A stretch of DNA of 64,000 nt from Allopontixanthobacter sediminis (GTDB taxonomy: Bacteria; Pseudomonadota; Alphaproteobacteria; Sphingomonadales; Sphingomonadaceae): contig NZ_WTYL01000002.1 of the NCBI RefSeq assembly GCF_009828115.1, positions 992,001-1,056,000 of the forward strand. Reading direction: 5' to 3'. Below, one piece after another: positions 9,685 to 16,421 of the stretch (the first letter of the stretch is position 1; each line of letters starts with the position of its first letter). Made by a program: the position numbers and the translations under genes. The notes beneath the pieces are model-generated. The model ran no database searches. It was not told the DNA's origin and was given only the letters and a program-made list of their open reading frames with translations.

Positions 9685-11006
9685 GCTGGAAATGTCCTTT
9701 CGTGGACGGGTGAACGCGCGAGCGTGGTGCCCACCGCGACGATCGCCGCGACAATGAACAGCACGGCCTCGGCCATGAAAACGAACTGGAATGCCGCGGC
9801 ATCCTGTCCGGTCGCTGCGCGTAGCTGGTCGACCAGCACGGCACCGGTCAGCCCGCCGATGCCGAACGCGATGGCCTGTGATGCGCCCCACACGCCCATC
9901 CGCGCCCCTTCGGCCGATCCGCTGCCTTTGCTGGCCAGGCCGAGCATCGCGCCGACCGCTGCGACGGCAAATATACCGTTGGCAACGCCGAGACCGAAGA
10001 CATTTGCCACCAGCGGCCATTCGGTGCCCTGCGTCGCGGCGAACGACAGGCCTGCGAGCATGACTGCCGAGCCGGTGCAACCAAGGGCAATCCAAAGTTT
10101 CAGGTTCTGCCCGAAATAGCGGGTGTAGAGACTGCCGCCGAGCCCCGCCGCGAGCATGCCGAGCAGGATGCCGCTGTGCTGGATGCTGGAAAGCTGGGTG
10201 GATTCGCCGGGAGTCATTTCGAACAGGAAGCCGGCGAACGGTTCCATGATCAAATCCTGCATGGAATAGGCGAGCATCGAAATGAAGACGAAGAAAGTGA
10301 ATCGGCGGGCTTCTCTTTCCGCCCAGATTTCTCGTAACGCGTCGGGGAAACTTTGCCGTTCCCCGGTGTTATTCGGCTGCAGGACAGGCGGGTTGCGGTC
10401 TTCGAGATTACGCAGCGCCATCATCGCGAGGCAGAAGGCGACCAGCACCACGAGGCTCGAAACGATGGCGAGGCGGGCCTCGCTGAAGGGGTCGAGATAC
10501 GCGCCGGAGACGCCTGCTGCGATCACGATCCCCGCGATCATCATGGTCCAGCTAATCGCCGCGGCGGCTGGCTTGCGCTCCGCCGAAACGCGCGAGGCCA
10601 GAAGCGCGAGAAGCGCGGTGCCGGACATGCCGACGCCGAACCCGATCATGGTAAAGCCGAGCAGCGCGAGGATTGCGGCGCCGAAACCAGGATCGGCCAT
10701 CAGGATCGTTGCATCGACCGCCAGCACCGCTCCGAATGCCAGAATCCCCATTCCGCCGACAATCCACGGGGTGCGGCGGCGTGACTGGTCCGATTTATGG
10801 CCCCACAGCGGGCGGGTCAGTTGAACCGCGTAATGCCACGCCAGCAGCCCGGCCGGAACCGCTGCCGCGACGGAATATTCGACCACCATTACTCGGTTGA
10901 GGAGGGAGGTGGCGAGCATCACCATCGCGCCGATGGCAGCCTGCACCGTGCCCAGGCGGACGATGCCCAGCCAGCCTAGGCCTTGGGGCTGCTGCCGCGC
11001 CGCCAT
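9681..11006 (-). CDS. PucC-family (BCD) MFS transporter between bchG and bchP
   Basis: A 441-aa protein with 12 predicted membrane helices in the bacteriochlorophyll delivery (BCD/PucC) branch of the major facilitator superfamily. It carries the family's N-terminal sequence LNRVMVVE and the loop motif GHKSDQSRRRTPWI, matching the GHRSD..R..LGWRRVP motif of LhaA in this same window. Members in this position are thought to help deliver or insert bacteriochlorophyll during assembly. The ATG at 11006 overlaps the bchG stop by one base and the stop overlaps bchP by 4. It is a second paralogue of lhaA (23158-24594). The exact substrate is unproven. Confidence 0.9.
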   Translation of the reverse strand: MAARQQPQGLGWLGIVRLGTVQAAIGAMVMLATSLLNRVMVVEYSVAAAVPAGLLAWHYAVQLTRPLWGHKSDQSRRRTPWIVGGMGILAFGAVLAVDATILMADPGFGAAILALLGFTMIGFGVGMSGTALLALLASRVSAERKPAAAAISWTMMIAGIVIAAGVSGAYLDPFSEARLAIVSSLVVLVAFCLAMMALRNLEDRNPPVLQPNNTGERQSFPDALREIWAEREARRFTFFVFISMLAYSMQDLIMEPFAGFLFEMTPGESTQLSSIQHSGILLGMLAAGLGGSLYTRYFGQNLKLWIALGCTGSAVMLAGLSFAATQGTEWPLVANVFGLGVANGIFAVAAVGAMLGLASKGSGSAEGARMGVWGASQAIAFGIGGLTGAVLVDQLRAATGQDAAAFQFVFMAEAVLFIVAAIVAVGTTLARSPVHERTFPA

Positions 11007-11908
11007 TACAGGTATCCTCCCAAACCAAGCGCCGCGGCGAGCATTCCTAGGACGTAAAGCAGGACGCCGGTGGCGTTGTACCACGGCGCGAATTTGCGCG
11101 GATCGCTTAGCAGGCGCGCCATCAGGGCAACTTGCGCGGCAAGAGAGGCACCGACAATGGCCGCAGAAAGAACCAATCCCCACTGCACCAGCAAGGCGGC
11201 GACTGCGACTTGTGCGAGGGTCATCACCGCGCATGCCGTCAGCGCAGCCTTTCGGACCCCAAGTGTTACTGGAAGCGAACGCAGCCCGGTGGCGCGGTCG
11301 CCGTCGACGGCTTTGAAATCGTTGAGTGTCATGATCCCGTGCGCGCCGAAGCTATACAGAAGCAGAATTGCGATGATGCCGGTACCGGGCAAGCCTCCCA
11401 CCATCACCGCCGCACCGGTAAACCACGACAACCCTTCATAGCTGAGCGCACACGCCGCCGGCCCCAGCCACCCGCTGCGTTTGAGACGAAGGGGCGGGGC
11501 GCTGTAGGCCCAGCCAAAAAACAGTGCGACGCAGGTTGCGGCAAACACCCAGACGCCAAGCAGTGCGCCGACGACTAGCGAAATACCGGTCCCTGTGAGC
11601 GCGATCCATACTGGCCAGCGTCCGGGCACCCGGCCCGACGGGATCGGTCGATCGGGTTCGTTGATCGCATCGACATGCCGGTCGCACCAATCGTTGATCA
11701 CTTGGCTGGTCCCGCAAACGATCGGGCCGGTAAGCAATATCCCTGCGGCCAGAAATATCCAGTTCTCGGTGATCGACACACCCGACGAAACCACCCCGCA
11801 CATGAACGCCCACATCGGCGGGAACCACGTGACCGGCTTGGTTAACTCGACAACGTCTCTCAGTGCGGGAGGCCGCGCTGGCGTTGCCGAGAGGGACGAA
11901 TCTGCCAT
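11006..11908 (-). CDS. bchG: Bacteriochlorophyll synthase (chlorophyll synthase)
   Basis: A 300-aa UbiA-family prenyltransferase that esterifies bacteriochlorophyllide a with geranylgeranyl diphosphate. It is a polytopic inner-membrane enzyme with about nine helices. The two aspartate-rich metal and diphosphate motifs are visible: NDWCDRHVDAINEPDRP near residues 67-83 and NDFKAVDGDRATGLRSLP near residue 197. The ATG at 11908 is preceded by GGGGGAGG. First gene of the bchG-pucC-bchP-tspO-orf91 transcript, with an exact TGT-N12-ACA PpsR-type operator 30 bases upstream. Length is normal for the family. Confidence 0.97.
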   Translation of the reverse strand: MADSSLSATPARPPALRDVVELTKPVTWFPPMWAFMCGVVSSGVSITENWIFLAAGILLTGPIVCGTSQVINDWCDRHVDAINEPDRPIPSGRVPGRWPVWIALTGTGISLVVGALLGVWVFAATCVALFFGWAYSAPPLRLKRSGWLGPAACALSYEGLSWFTGAAVMVGGLPGTGIIAILLLYSFGAHGIMTLNDFKAVDGDRATGLRSLPVTLGVRKAALTACAVMTLAQVAVAALLVQWGLVLSAAIVGASLAAQVALMARLLSDPRKFAPWYNATGVLLYVLGMLAAALGLGGYL

Positions 11909-11937
11909 AGGGGGAGGCTATGCCTACCATGCCTAGG

Positions 11938-11955
11938 TGTCAACTTTTTTGGACA
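11938..11955. promoter_or_regulatory. PpsR/CrtJ-type operator upstream of bchG
   Basis: TGTCAACTTTTTTGGACA fits the TGT-N12-ACA palindrome bound by PpsR/CrtJ repressors exactly. It sits 30 bases before the bchG start codon and 43 bases after the ppsR stop, so it should control the bchG transcript. Its reverse complement differs at one base out of 18 from the operator upstream of bchF. Confidence 0.85.
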
Positions 11956-11998
11956 GTCACAATGTAAAGGTTGGGAGGCGGCAAATTGGACCGCAAAA

Positions 11999-13429
11999 TC
12001 ACTCTTTACCGGGCAAGTTCCCGAGGCCATGCCGGTGGAGTTTCGAATACAGGCTCTGCCGGCTGAGGCCGAGGATTTCCGCCGCTGATGCGCGATTGTC
12101 GGAGGTATGCGCCAAAGCTGCCTCGATGCACATGCGTTCGATCAGGTCGGTACTCTCGCGGACGATTTCCTTGAGCGGCTTGCGACCGATCAACTCGGTG
12201 AGCTGTTCGACCGAACGCGGCAATTCGCGGCCGCCGGTGGGCAGGTCCCGTTCGCGCCGGCCGATCGCGCGGATCGAATATCCGAACAGCGGCTTTTCCC
12301 GCTCGATCATCAGGGCGGAAATTTCCACCGGTTCCACACCGCCGTTGAGATCGTTGACCACAGAACCGAAATTGCGGACATTCCGGTGATCCTTGAGCTG
12401 CTTCTTTAGCAGGCCGAGATCGATCGAAGGGCGCCCGACAAACCGGCTCAGTGAAACGCCGACCAATTGTTCGACCGAGGCGGATTGAACCAGCTCCGCG
12501 AAAGACCGGTTGGCCACCACGATGTCGTGCTTCTCGTCGGTCAGGACAAACGCGTCGGGCATCTTTTCCACCGCATCGAGGACGTAGCGGTCGGATTGGC
12601 GGGCTGGCACTTCGTGCTGGCCATCATCGATGTTGATCAACCAATACTGCCTTCCGGACTGGCGAAATGCCGACATGGCAAACTTCACGGTACCCTCGAG
12701 TCCGATCAGGCGGAGTTCGACTGGTTCCGCCGAGCTGCTGACCGAAGCTGCACCCACGTGGCCGAGCAGTTTTTCGCGCGATTCCGGGGCGACCAGTTCG
12801 GTAAGGGCCTTCCCGTCGATACTTCCCGGCGCGGCATCGATCAGGCTATGCAGGGCACGGTTGGCCTGCTGTATCTGGAGGTTGTCCGCATCCGCGATCA
12901 AAACGGGATAGGAGATATTGTCGAACAGCAGGCGGTACCGCGTTTCCGTCTGGCGCAGGTTCAGATAGTCCCGCTCCATCGATTGCTGCGTCTTCAACAG
13001 GCGCTGCTGCAGGGCCGAGATCGCCCTGAGGTCGCGGCCTACCGCAATCGTCGAACGGTTGTCCGTGGAACGGAAAACGCGGTAACTGACCGGGACATCT
13101 TCGCCTTCATCACCGTGCAGGTGATTGACCTGTCGCCATTCCGCTTCGCCGCCATAATAGGGGTCGAGCAATTGTTCGATTTTCGCCACGCTCTCAACGG
13201 TGACTGTATCGACCCACTTCTTGCCGATCCACTGGCTCGCCAGACCTTTGTCGTTGGCGTTGAGAGCCAGGTCGCGGACAATCCCGTTCTCGTCGATCGC
13301 CAGCAGGAAATCGCCGGCGCAGCAGGCAAGTTCGATAATCTCGTCACGAGTGAACCCGGCGAACATCGCGTCAGGATCGCTGAACGGGATCCTGCTGCCG
13401 CCAGATGATCGGATGTCCATCACATTCAC
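11999..13429 (-). CDS. ppsR: PpsR/CrtJ transcriptional repressor of photosynthesis genes
   Basis: A 476-aa regulator with an N-terminal region plus two PAS domains (PAS about residues 160-260 and 280-390) joined by a long helix, and a C-terminal Fis-type helix-turn-helix (about residues 432-470, with NRASAAEILGLSRQSLYSKL). It binds TGT-N12-ACA sites and represses bch, puf and related genes in oxygen or light. Cysteines are limited to C36, C37 and C434. C434 sits at the start of the DNA-binding helices like C424 of the Rhodobacter protein, but there is no cysteine in the middle of the protein to match C251. The start may be GTG 13429 or ATG 13420. It follows ppaA by only 6 bases. Confidence 0.95.
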   Translation of the reverse strand: MNVMDIRSSGGSRIPFSDPDAMFAGFTRDEIIELACCAGDFLLAIDENGIVRDLALNANDKGLASQWIGKKWVDTVTVESVAKIEQLLDPYYGGEAEWRQVNHLHGDEGEDVPVSYRVFRSTDNRSTIAVGRDLRAISALQQRLLKTQQSMERDYLNLRQTETRYRLLFDNISYPVLIADADNLQIQQANRALHSLIDAAPGSIDGKALTELVAPESREKLLGHVGAASVSSSAEPVELRLIGLEGTVKFAMSAFRQSGRQYWLINIDDGQHEVPARQSDRYVLDAVEKMPDAFVLTDEKHDIVVANRSFAELVQSASVEQLVGVSLSRFVGRPSIDLGLLKKQLKDHRNVRNFGSVVNDLNGGVEPVEISALMIEREKPLFGYSIRAIGRRERDLPTGGRELPRSVEQLTELIGRKPLKEIVRESTDLIERMCIEAALAHTSDNRASAAEILGLSRQSLYSKLHRHGLGNLPGKE

Positions 13430-13435
13430 AACCGG

Positions 13436-14395
13436 CTAGCTTCTGGGTACGCTGTCATGCGCTCTCAAGGGGACCAGTCCATCGGCCACGGCAACTGCGC
13501 TGATCGCATCGGATGCGCTGCCATCAGCGCCGCATTGAATCACCAATTCGGTCTGCGTATTGACGAAACGTCCGCCGATCATGATACGAATTCCCGGATT
13601 ACTGGAAACCGATCTGATCGCCTTGATCAACCCGGTGAGGCTGGCCGTAGGGCAGTCTTTACTGATGGTCAATCCGACCATGTCATAGCTCTTGTTTACG
13701 AACTTGGCTGTCAACTCTGCCTGAGTCGGCTCCATAAGGACTTCCGCATCCCATCCGGCCCGCTGGAAACATTCGGCGACCATCAGCGTCCCGAGGCTGT
13801 GCTGTTCCCCCGGCATGGTGGAAAACAGGGCTGACCGTTGTCCCTGGCCCGAAGCGTTTGGAGGCGGGATGCGAAGGGTCAGTTCGCGCAGCACTTCCTG
13901 GATCCGCCACAAACCCATCGTCACATCAACAAAGTCTGTTGTGTCGGCTTCCCACAGTTCCCCTAGACGCCGCGCGGTGGGTGCCAGCAGGTCCACGTAG
14001 ATGTCTTCGATCGAGTTTCCCGTAGCGAGGCAATTGTCGATAAAATCCAGCATCGCGCTGGTCTGGGAATCGAGGGAAAGTTTGGTGAATGATTCTATAT
14101 CGCGCAATGAGATGGGCCGCCTCCGGTCCGTGCCGATAGTTTCCGCCAGCGCCTTCTCGCCAATCCGGCAGGGCCAGCCATCATGACCCCCGTCACGGTG
14201 CGCGATAAGTTCGGGAATAACCAGATTTTCCAGGATGACGGACAGGCTTATGAAGTTGTCGGGGTCCTCGACGACCCTGCAGATATCGATCTCGGCGGGA
14301 CTTTCGGCAGATGGGCCAGCTCTAGGCTTTAGCTTGGCGGATCGCCAGTCATCGAACCTTGAACGAAGTTCCGACAGCCCGAAATCTGTAGCCAT
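13436..14395 (-). CDS. ppaA: PpaA/AerR family B12-binding photosynthesis regulator
   Basis: A 319-aa regulator of the PpaA/AerR family that modulates PpsR/CrtJ. The helical domain around residues 130-172 has LGELWEADTTDFVDVTMG, the AerR version of the B12-binding helix bundle. The cobalamin-binding Rossmann domain (about residues 188-300) opens with PGEQHSLGTLMVAE, an E-x-H-x-x-G motif in which H199 can be the lower cobalt ligand. In Rhodobacter capsulatus AerR binds cobalamin in a light-dependent way and acts as an antirepressor. A GGGAGAG ribosome site stands 7 bases before the ATG. It is co-transcribed with ppsR, so sensor and repressor are made together. Confidence 0.93.
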   Translation of the reverse strand: MATDFGLSELRSRFDDWRSAKLKPRAGPSAESPAEIDICRVVEDPDNFISLSVILENLVIPELIAHRDGGHDGWPCRIGEKALAETIGTDRRRPISLRDIESFTKLSLDSQTSAMLDFIDNCLATGNSIEDIYVDLLAPTARRLGELWEADTTDFVDVTMGLWRIQEVLRELTLRIPPPNASGQGQRSALFSTMPGEQHSLGTLMVAECFQRAGWDAEVLMEPTQAELTAKFVNKSYDMVGLTISKDCPTASLTGLIKAIRSVSSNPGIRIMIGGRFVNTQTELVIQCGADGSASDAISAVAVADGLVPLRAHDSVPRS

Positions 14396-14601
14396 GTGCA
14401 GACTCTCCCTAAGAAGCCTGGTCGGCGTGACATAACGTCGGCCATGGGGCAGTTATTCTGCCTCTCGCGACTCGGATGCTATGCCATTTGTAAGCCGTTG
14501 GCAATCTATCCACTGTCAACTTTTCTTGATGTCCAAAAAACTTGACACTTTGTTCCGTGGAGTCGTAGCTTCCTGTTCTGAGTAGAGCGGGAGAAGGTCA
14601 G
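14396..14601. promoter_or_regulatory. Divergent ppaA/bchF control region
   Basis: About 206 bases between the start of ppaA (leftward) and the likely start of bchF (rightward), with no coding content. It holds the exact PpsR-type operator at 14530-14547 and, directly abutting it, an imperfect copy beginning TGTCAACTTTT at 14514 whose right half is ATG instead of ACA. Promoters in both directions are expected here; no clear sigma70 boxes could be assigned by eye. Confidence 0.7.
14530..14547. promoter_or_regulatory. PpsR/CrtJ-type operator upstream of bchF
   Basis: TGTCCAAAAAACTTGACA matches TGT-N12-ACA exactly. It lies 54 bases before the proposed CTG start of bchF and should govern the long bchF-to-hemA operon. 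A degenerate copy at 14514-14531 overlaps it by two bases, giving a tandem arrangement such as PpsR/CrtJ uses for cooperative binding. Confidence 0.85.

Positions 14602-14682: not shown

Positions 14683-16421
<1,739 letters not shown>

Follow-up and report, generated by a model that had tools for sequence, protein, structure and literature searches.

Together with its partner PpaA/AerR, PpsR is one of the central switches through which light and oxygen control the synthesis of bacteriochlorophyll. Operators of this regulator have been described at several photosynthesis promoters. At bchC of Rhodobacter capsulatus, CrtJ/PpsR palindromes stand in tandem with an 8-bp gap (PMC5362033), and the gaps of other tandem PpsR pairs are 7–9 bp (PMC4452267, PMC2654016). 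In Dinoroseobacter shibae, the PpsR sites at bchF overlap the −35 and −10 boxes, and mutating them derepresses bchF-lacZ (PMC10890935). Both ppaA and bchF are PpsR targets in Rhodobacter sphaeroides, with ppaA being repressed (PMC4344238), while in Rubrivivax gelatinosus the variants TGT-N12-ACG and cGT-N12-ACA at pucB and crtI are bound by PpsR in vitro (PMC4452267). Here, we analyze a 64,000-nucleotide stretch of Allopontixanthobacter sediminis (contig NZ_WTYL01000002.1, positions 992,001–1,056,000; hereafter the window, with positions counted from its first letter), in which ppsR and ppaA lie between bchG and bchF, and a putative PpsR operator precedes each of these two outer genes. The explanation that we consider probable is that these are ordinary PpsR operators placed on the −35 boxes of bchG and bchF, with the bchF site additionally forming one half of a conserved overlapping composite.

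This locus shares with D. shibae the divergent bchF–ppaA region. The latter has four predicted PpsR sites, one of them over the −35 box; however, those sites are of the TGT-N12-ACA form over the −10 and −35 boxes, and a 2-bp overlap is not mentioned in the accessible text of that report (PMC10890935). As in the tandem CrtJ/PpsR pairs, two TGT-N12-ACA sites stand close together on one promoter, but in place of the classic 7–9 bp gap the bchF composite has a gap of minus 2 bp, with the centers 16 bp apart rather than 25–27 bp. The same genome does have a classic tandem pair at its bchC-like promoter (locus L124, 7594–7636, corresponding to C4:47593–47635), where TGTCCTGACGAAGTGACA and TGTCCAGTTTAGTTGACA are separated by 7 bp and the second site lies over a TTGACA box. 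R. sphaeroides belongs to a different bacterial order, and two separate motifs are given there for ppaA and bchF (PMC4344238). The half-site variants bound in R. gelatinosus are identical to those of a CG-centered composite, although the gaps reported there are 8 or 9 bp, without overlap (PMC4452267). We found no description of overlapping PpsR sites in the open-access PubMed Central literature; one may be in print in subscription papers or supplements, such as the classic CrtJ work or the 2005 PpsR review. The overlapping composite is new as far as the open-access literature shows, whereas the single sites are of an already known kind.

Putative PpsR operators on the bchG and bchF promoters

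The single site before bchG (11938–11955, reverse strand) reads TGTCCAAAAAAGTTGACA towards that gene, or TGTCAACTTTTTTGGACA in forward-strand letters, and the site before bchF (14530–14547, forward strand) reads TGTCCAAAAAACTTGACA. Both fit TGT-N12-ACA, and the cross-strand identity of 17/18 noted in an earlier, sequence-only reading of the window is exact. That reading regarded the 12-base core as usually free, but the published consensus TGTcaN8tgACA fixes more positions than the outer triplets (PMC2654016). When the window was scanned with the bchF site, the best score was 18 (the site itself), followed by 17 for the bchG site, with the next-best 18-mer reaching only 13/18; thus, the likeness of the two sites is real. 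The bare TGT-N12-ACA motif is weak evidence: the window contains 11 matches where 5.5 are expected, a number that 4 of 100 shuffles also reach. The extended form TGTCNA-N6-TTGACA occurs exactly twice in the window, at the bchG and bchF sites, against an expectation of 0.04. Across the whole genome of the host its exact matches fall in three places only, namely bchG, bchF and bchC, with none for the reversed control. Allowing two mismatches made the genome scan uninformative (200 forward versus 164 reversed-control matches), and three other sites of this genome, C1:770745 (inside open reading frames), C1:1092741 and C3:122061, were assigned to no photosynthesis gene.

The relation of the sites to the promoters is consistent in relatives. 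In the window and its ten closest relatives, the bchG site takes the form TGTC(C/A)A-N6-TTGACA at 29–30 bp before bchG (41 bp in one), with CATAG following 15 bp past it. The same alignment gives a predicted −35 box TTGACA (11938–11943, reverse strand) and a predicted −10 box TAGCCT (11915–11920, reverse strand). The combination of a TTGACA −35 box, a 17-bp spacer and a TAGCCT-like −10 box locates the bchG operator on the promoter. The operator is found 21–30 bp before bchG even in loci where this gene has been relocated by kilobases. The bchG mRNA is probably leaderless, which would explain the constant 29–30 bp between operator and start. In the window, the predicted −10 box lies 6 bp before the ATG (11906–11920, reverse strand), the corresponding distance being 6–7 bp in most near relatives.

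At bchF, the predicted −35 box TTGACA (14542–14547, forward strand) is shared by all 75 sequences with the composite in the Sphingomonadales set, with the proviso that four of its bases belong to the score by which these were selected (see below). The predicted −10 box TAGCTT (14566–14571, forward strand) was recognized by positional conservation; a TAGNYT-like −10 box occurs in 77 of the 88 composite-bearing sequences, 60 of the 77 having an 18-bp spacer. Each site, which can be read as TGTCCA-(A/T-rich)-TTGACA towards its respective gene, combines the features of a PpsR/CrtJ operator visible at the sequence level, namely the motif, a position on a photosynthesis promoter that overlaps its −35 or −10 box, and a PpsR encoded in the genome. 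Very likely, then, PpsR uses both as operators that overlie the TTGACA −35 boxes of bchG and bchF; this much of the sequence-only reading has held up, and both sites are conserved in relatives.

Upstream regions of bchG in the wider family (e.g., L178, L180 and L173) have the operator as TGTCAA-N6-TTGACG. Many of these also display TGTCA 8 bp after the operator, just before the −10 box, resembling half of a tandem second site.

The overlapping composite at bchF

The bchF site belongs to a 34-bp composite (14514–14547, unstranded), in which two TGT-N12-ACA-like sites share 2 bp (14530–14531) and of which it forms the right half. The composite was delineated by conservation and by a strict pattern confined to PpsR-bearing genomes. 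The left, ppaA-side half, TGTCAACTTTTCTTGATG (14514–14531, forward strand), with a conserved outer TGTC, had been recorded as a third, degenerate copy abutting the bchF site; the copy is indeed there, but it overlaps that site by 2 bp rather than abutting it. In the alignment of the ppaA–bchF regions, the composite emerges as a palindrome, TGTC-N10-GA(C/T)GTC-N10-GACA, with GACGTC as the usual form of its center. We scored its 14 fixed positions, with a threshold of 12/14, in 95 distinct regions, which remained from 120 usable loci out of 124 after removal of identical composite-plus-flank copies. First, 88 of these 95 regions scored at least 12/14, compared to 0.18% of dinucleotide shuffles. 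Second, a scan of center-to-center spacings from 10 to 44 bp peaked at 16 bp, with 73 of the 95 regions, the next-best spacing having 11. Third, every base of the left outer TGTC is kept in 91–100% of the 75 composite-bearing sequences of the Sphingomonadales set. The right half is conserved better than the left, and the central ACGT is strongly conserved.

We then ran the strict pattern TGTCNA-N9-ACGT-N9-TTGACA on 397 genomes of the host's family. It was found in 39 of them, at one place each and 302–1364 bp from ppsR, with no reversed-control match in any of the rows. All 39 are among the 76 genomes with PpsR, as against none of the 321 others (hypergeometric P about 4 × 10−33); the PpsR census and the strict scan were separate draws of 397, and every matching genome was confirmed among the 76. 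A second, A-tract pattern (up to two mismatches) was recovered from 21 genomes, all with PpsR (reversed control: 2/397), so that the two patterns jointly account for 49 of the 76 PpsR-bearing genomes. Among 64 further loci (L017–L080), the composite was present at 12/14 or better in 23 and absent in 31, while ten had no bchF. The 23 positive loci come from Hyphomicrobium, Bradyrhizobium, Woeseiaceae, Rubrivivax and others, including one from Blastomonas (L024).

A rival reading assigns the palindrome to some other regulator that occurs alongside PpsR, for instance, one reading the central GACGTC, and the conserved ACGT center speaks in its favor. However, the outer and inner half-sites both match the PpsR consensus TGTcaN8tgACA, the strict matches are restricted to PpsR genomes, and PpaA, which also accompanies PpsR, has no match to a helix-turn-helix (HTH) family. 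We therefore regard a different regulator as quite improbable.

The shared dinucleotide bears on whether one or both halves are maintained as PpsR sites. A perfect right site requires TG at this position and a perfect left site CA, whereas CG costs each half one base. CG was found in 81 of the 88 composite-bearing regions, TG in seven (including the window) and CA in none; with the two shared bases left unscored, the numbers are 67 of 73 for CG and 6 of 73 for TG. For comparison with isolated sites, bchG rows picked by TGTC...GACA give T in 55/55, a selection that favors T, and we used promoter-anchored bchG sites instead (TTGAC(A/G) plus TA 16–18 bp on; 77 sites from 90 regions examined). Of these, 68 start with T and nine with C, whereas the overlapped bchF site starts with C in 67 of 73 (shared bases unscored), as expected if the shared CG also serves the left site. 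Both halves of the composite appear to be under selection, and CG would, judging by these counts, be a compromise between them.

The same counts can be set against the proposal that only the right half is a PpsR site, with the left half kept for some other reason, such as being an element of the ppaA promoter. The better conservation of the right half and the TG center of the window, which favors the right site, are in line with this proposal. However, it predicts a first base that is mostly T, as in the bchG sites, rather than the C that is observed. Further, the predicted ppaA −35 box is a separate TTGCCA (14499–14504, reverse strand), situated 9 bp outside the composite on its left side and at variable distances in relatives, so that this box and the left TGTC are distinct elements. 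Together with the predicted −10 box TAGCAT (14476–14481, reverse strand), it forms TTGCCA-N17-TAGCAT in the window, with a promoter score of 13/13. A predicted ppaA promoter scoring at least 11 of 13 is present in 48 of 73 sequences, compared to 1.2% of mononucleotide shuffles; its −35 box lies at index 14–15 in 26 of the 48, at 31–36 in 12 and elsewhere in ten. On balance, use of the right half alone seems unlikely.

Our preferred reading, that the bchF site is half of an overlapping PpsR composite with both halves in use, has several observations weighing against it. The composite is missing from 31 of the 54 assayable loci in the L017–L080 set, nearly all of them Limnohabitans-like betaproteobacterial loci plus one Rhodobacteraceae metagenome-assembled genome (MAG), and of the 76 genomes with PpsR, 37 lack the strict pattern. 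Seven of the 95 regions score below 12, although one of these (L183, with a score of 8) is an incomplete region whose genome does carry the composite. ACG stands at the end of 30 of the 55 isolated bchG sites; hence, this half-site end is tolerated without overlap, and a CG center alone is no proof of a compromise. The TG center of the window weakens the left site there, which ends in ATG and does not fit TGT-N12-ACA. Moreover, two dimers are not obviously able to dock on sites that share 2 bp, so the left half is perhaps weakly or alternatively bound. PpsR binding at the composite in this species is itself a prediction from sequence.

The Limnohabitans-like loci with bchF (L035–L067 except L045 and L051) lack the composite, the exception in this range being L061, from a Woeseiaceae MAG, which has it. 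Most of them show TGTCAA-N6-TTGACA before bchF. In many, this is accompanied by a second site, placed 25 bp upstream or about 21 bp downstream; bchG is preceded by two sites in some of the loci.

Two further observations concern the ppaA side. In the ppaA leader (14396–14446, reverse strand), the block GGCCGACGTTATGTCACGCCGACC is conserved in near relatives, and down to the start codon the arrangement CAGRCT...GGAG...AGTCTG could fold around the ribosome-binding site. An RNA element in this leader found no support: there was no supporting covariation in 30 sequences and no Rfam match, and the fold in the window was no better than that of shuffles. In the Blastomonas-type loci (L011–L016 and L024), a further PpsR-like site, TGTCCAGNNNGCCTGACA, lies 192 bp before bchF and, by eye, overlaps a TTGTCA-type ppaA −35 box, as if ppaA–ppsR had its own operator there.

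The bchG and bchF sites considered as a pair

The sequence-only reading proposed that the two sites are matched to each other, being either tuned to equal affinity or looped over 2.6 kb around ppsR–ppaA. In favor of such a pair are the 17/18 identity and the gaps of 76 and 240 bp recorded in R. capsulatus (PMC4452267). We evaluated matching by permutation, leaving out regions scoring below 12, bchG sites below 7/8 and sites less than 15 bp from the start. Across all 55 usable pairs, an unblocked permutation did give a higher bchF–bchG site identity within genomes than between them (12.25 versus 11.70, P = 0.0005). However, the near clade of 16 genomes, including the window, showed no such difference (14.19 within versus 14.13 between, P = 0.46), nor did the remaining pairs alone (P = 0.19), nor all 55 pairs when the permutation was blocked by clade (12.25 versus 12.12, P = 0.14), the blocks being coarse (near, 16; Blastomonas-like, 9; other, 30). 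As the near, remaining and blocked tests are all non-significant, we attribute the unblocked result to differences between clades.

The sites also differ in how they are maintained: most close relatives have AAAAAACTTGACA on the bchF side, whereas the six-base center of the bchG site varies among them (AAAAAG, AATAAT, ATTAAT, AATAGT, etc.). Such a match, moreover, requires no pairing, as the site TGTCCAATAAAGTTGACA at bchC of R. sphaeroides, mapped by chromatin immunoprecipitation, is itself identical to the bchG site of the window at 17/18 positions (PMC4344238). TTGACA serves as the −35 box and also forms half of the PpsR palindrome, which is why two promoters of this kind, such as those in the window, look alike and face the same way relative to their genes; chance within an A/T-rich spacer most likely accounts for the rest of the match, in the six-base center.

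Looping over a fixed geometry finds as little support. The center-to-center distance is not conserved, ranging from 2555 to 2634 bp in near relatives, and the helical phase over 2.6 kb shows no clear clustering (Rayleigh p about 0.19, from eight distinct values and thus with low power). In the seven Blastomonas-type loci, bchG has moved together with its operator to 1.7–7 kb from ppsR, and the distance between the two sites becomes 4.3–9.6 kb. Thus, neither a kept spacing nor a kept phase, as would mark a looping pair, was found. The notion of a special mirrored pair is not supported, and we give a matched or looped pair very little credence; the sites themselves are best read as ordinary PpsR operators.

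The regulator, its gene neighborhood and a possible divergent switch

The gene identities were established with curated models. bchG (11006–11908, reverse strand) is recognized by TIGR01476 and NF005742, both above cut-off, and ppsR (11999–13429, reverse strand) by TIGR02040 with 375.5 bits against a cut-off of 275.4. The product of the latter displays the PAS domains, the C-terminal Fis-type HTH (HTH_8) and the equivalog score of the PpsR/CrtJ class. The next gene (13436–14395, reverse strand) codes for a ppaA/aerR-like B12-binding regulator (PF02310, 43.4 bits), its name resting on domain and synteny, and bchF (14683–15141, forward strand; TIGR02020, 178.4 bits) is followed by bchN, bchB and bchH, whose identities are likewise borne out. 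The two sites flank the ppsR–ppaA genes as the earlier reading had it. Of the genes concerned, ppaA, ppsR and bchG are co-directional, and bchF alone is divergent.

The ten closest ppsR matches in named contigs are 62–72% identical and have Sphingomonadales titles, except for one Oceanobacter-titled MAG; the five remaining genomes of the genus all lack a full PpsR match. The PpsR HTH is near invariant among relatives, which makes a shared specificity across these genomes reasonable, and its cysteine Cys434 is kept in 112 of 113 aligned sequences. The remaining cysteines of the window PpsR are only 36 and 37, both rare among the aligned sequences. A second redox cysteine has been described in CrtJ; it seems to be absent from the window PpsR. 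The photosynthesis genes of this genome are spread over two contigs. C2, which contains the window, carries bchG–ppsR–ppaA–bchFNBH, and C4 (158 kb; L124) encodes a bchC-like dehydrogenase, a NifH-type (bchX-like) protein and two proteins each of the antenna and the reaction center.

In our favored explanation, the PpsR encoded between the two sites would bind both as operators, each covering the −35 box of its own gene, and the bound protein would keep RNA polymerase off bchG and the bchF operon. The bchF site, as the right half of the composite, would be placed between the bchF promoter and the predicted ppaA promoter. Here, the composite would add a second PpsR contact facing the divergent ppaA–ppsR promoter, and a single PpsR-occupied element could thereby serve the divergent bchF and ppaA–ppsR units. 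The overlapping halves may be occupied in turn or by one tetramer, with ppaA being either repressed or helped. The left half is centered about 55 bp upstream of the predicted ppaA start. Less probably, the composite might constitute a distinct class of PpsR operator, acting as a divergent switch under PpsR alone or PpsR together with PpaA: bchF would be shut off via the right half, ppaA–ppsR would be left on or activated via the left half, and the partition of binding between the two sides would depend on the shared dinucleotide, which is CG in most species but TG in the window and in a few of its relatives.

How PpsR represses in one setting and activates in another is still under study. A conserved operator with overlapping halves, flanked by a pigment operon on one side and by the genes of the regulator itself on the other, offers a compact natural test object for this question, in which a single dinucleotide (CG, TG or CA) could probe the division of binding between two promoters.

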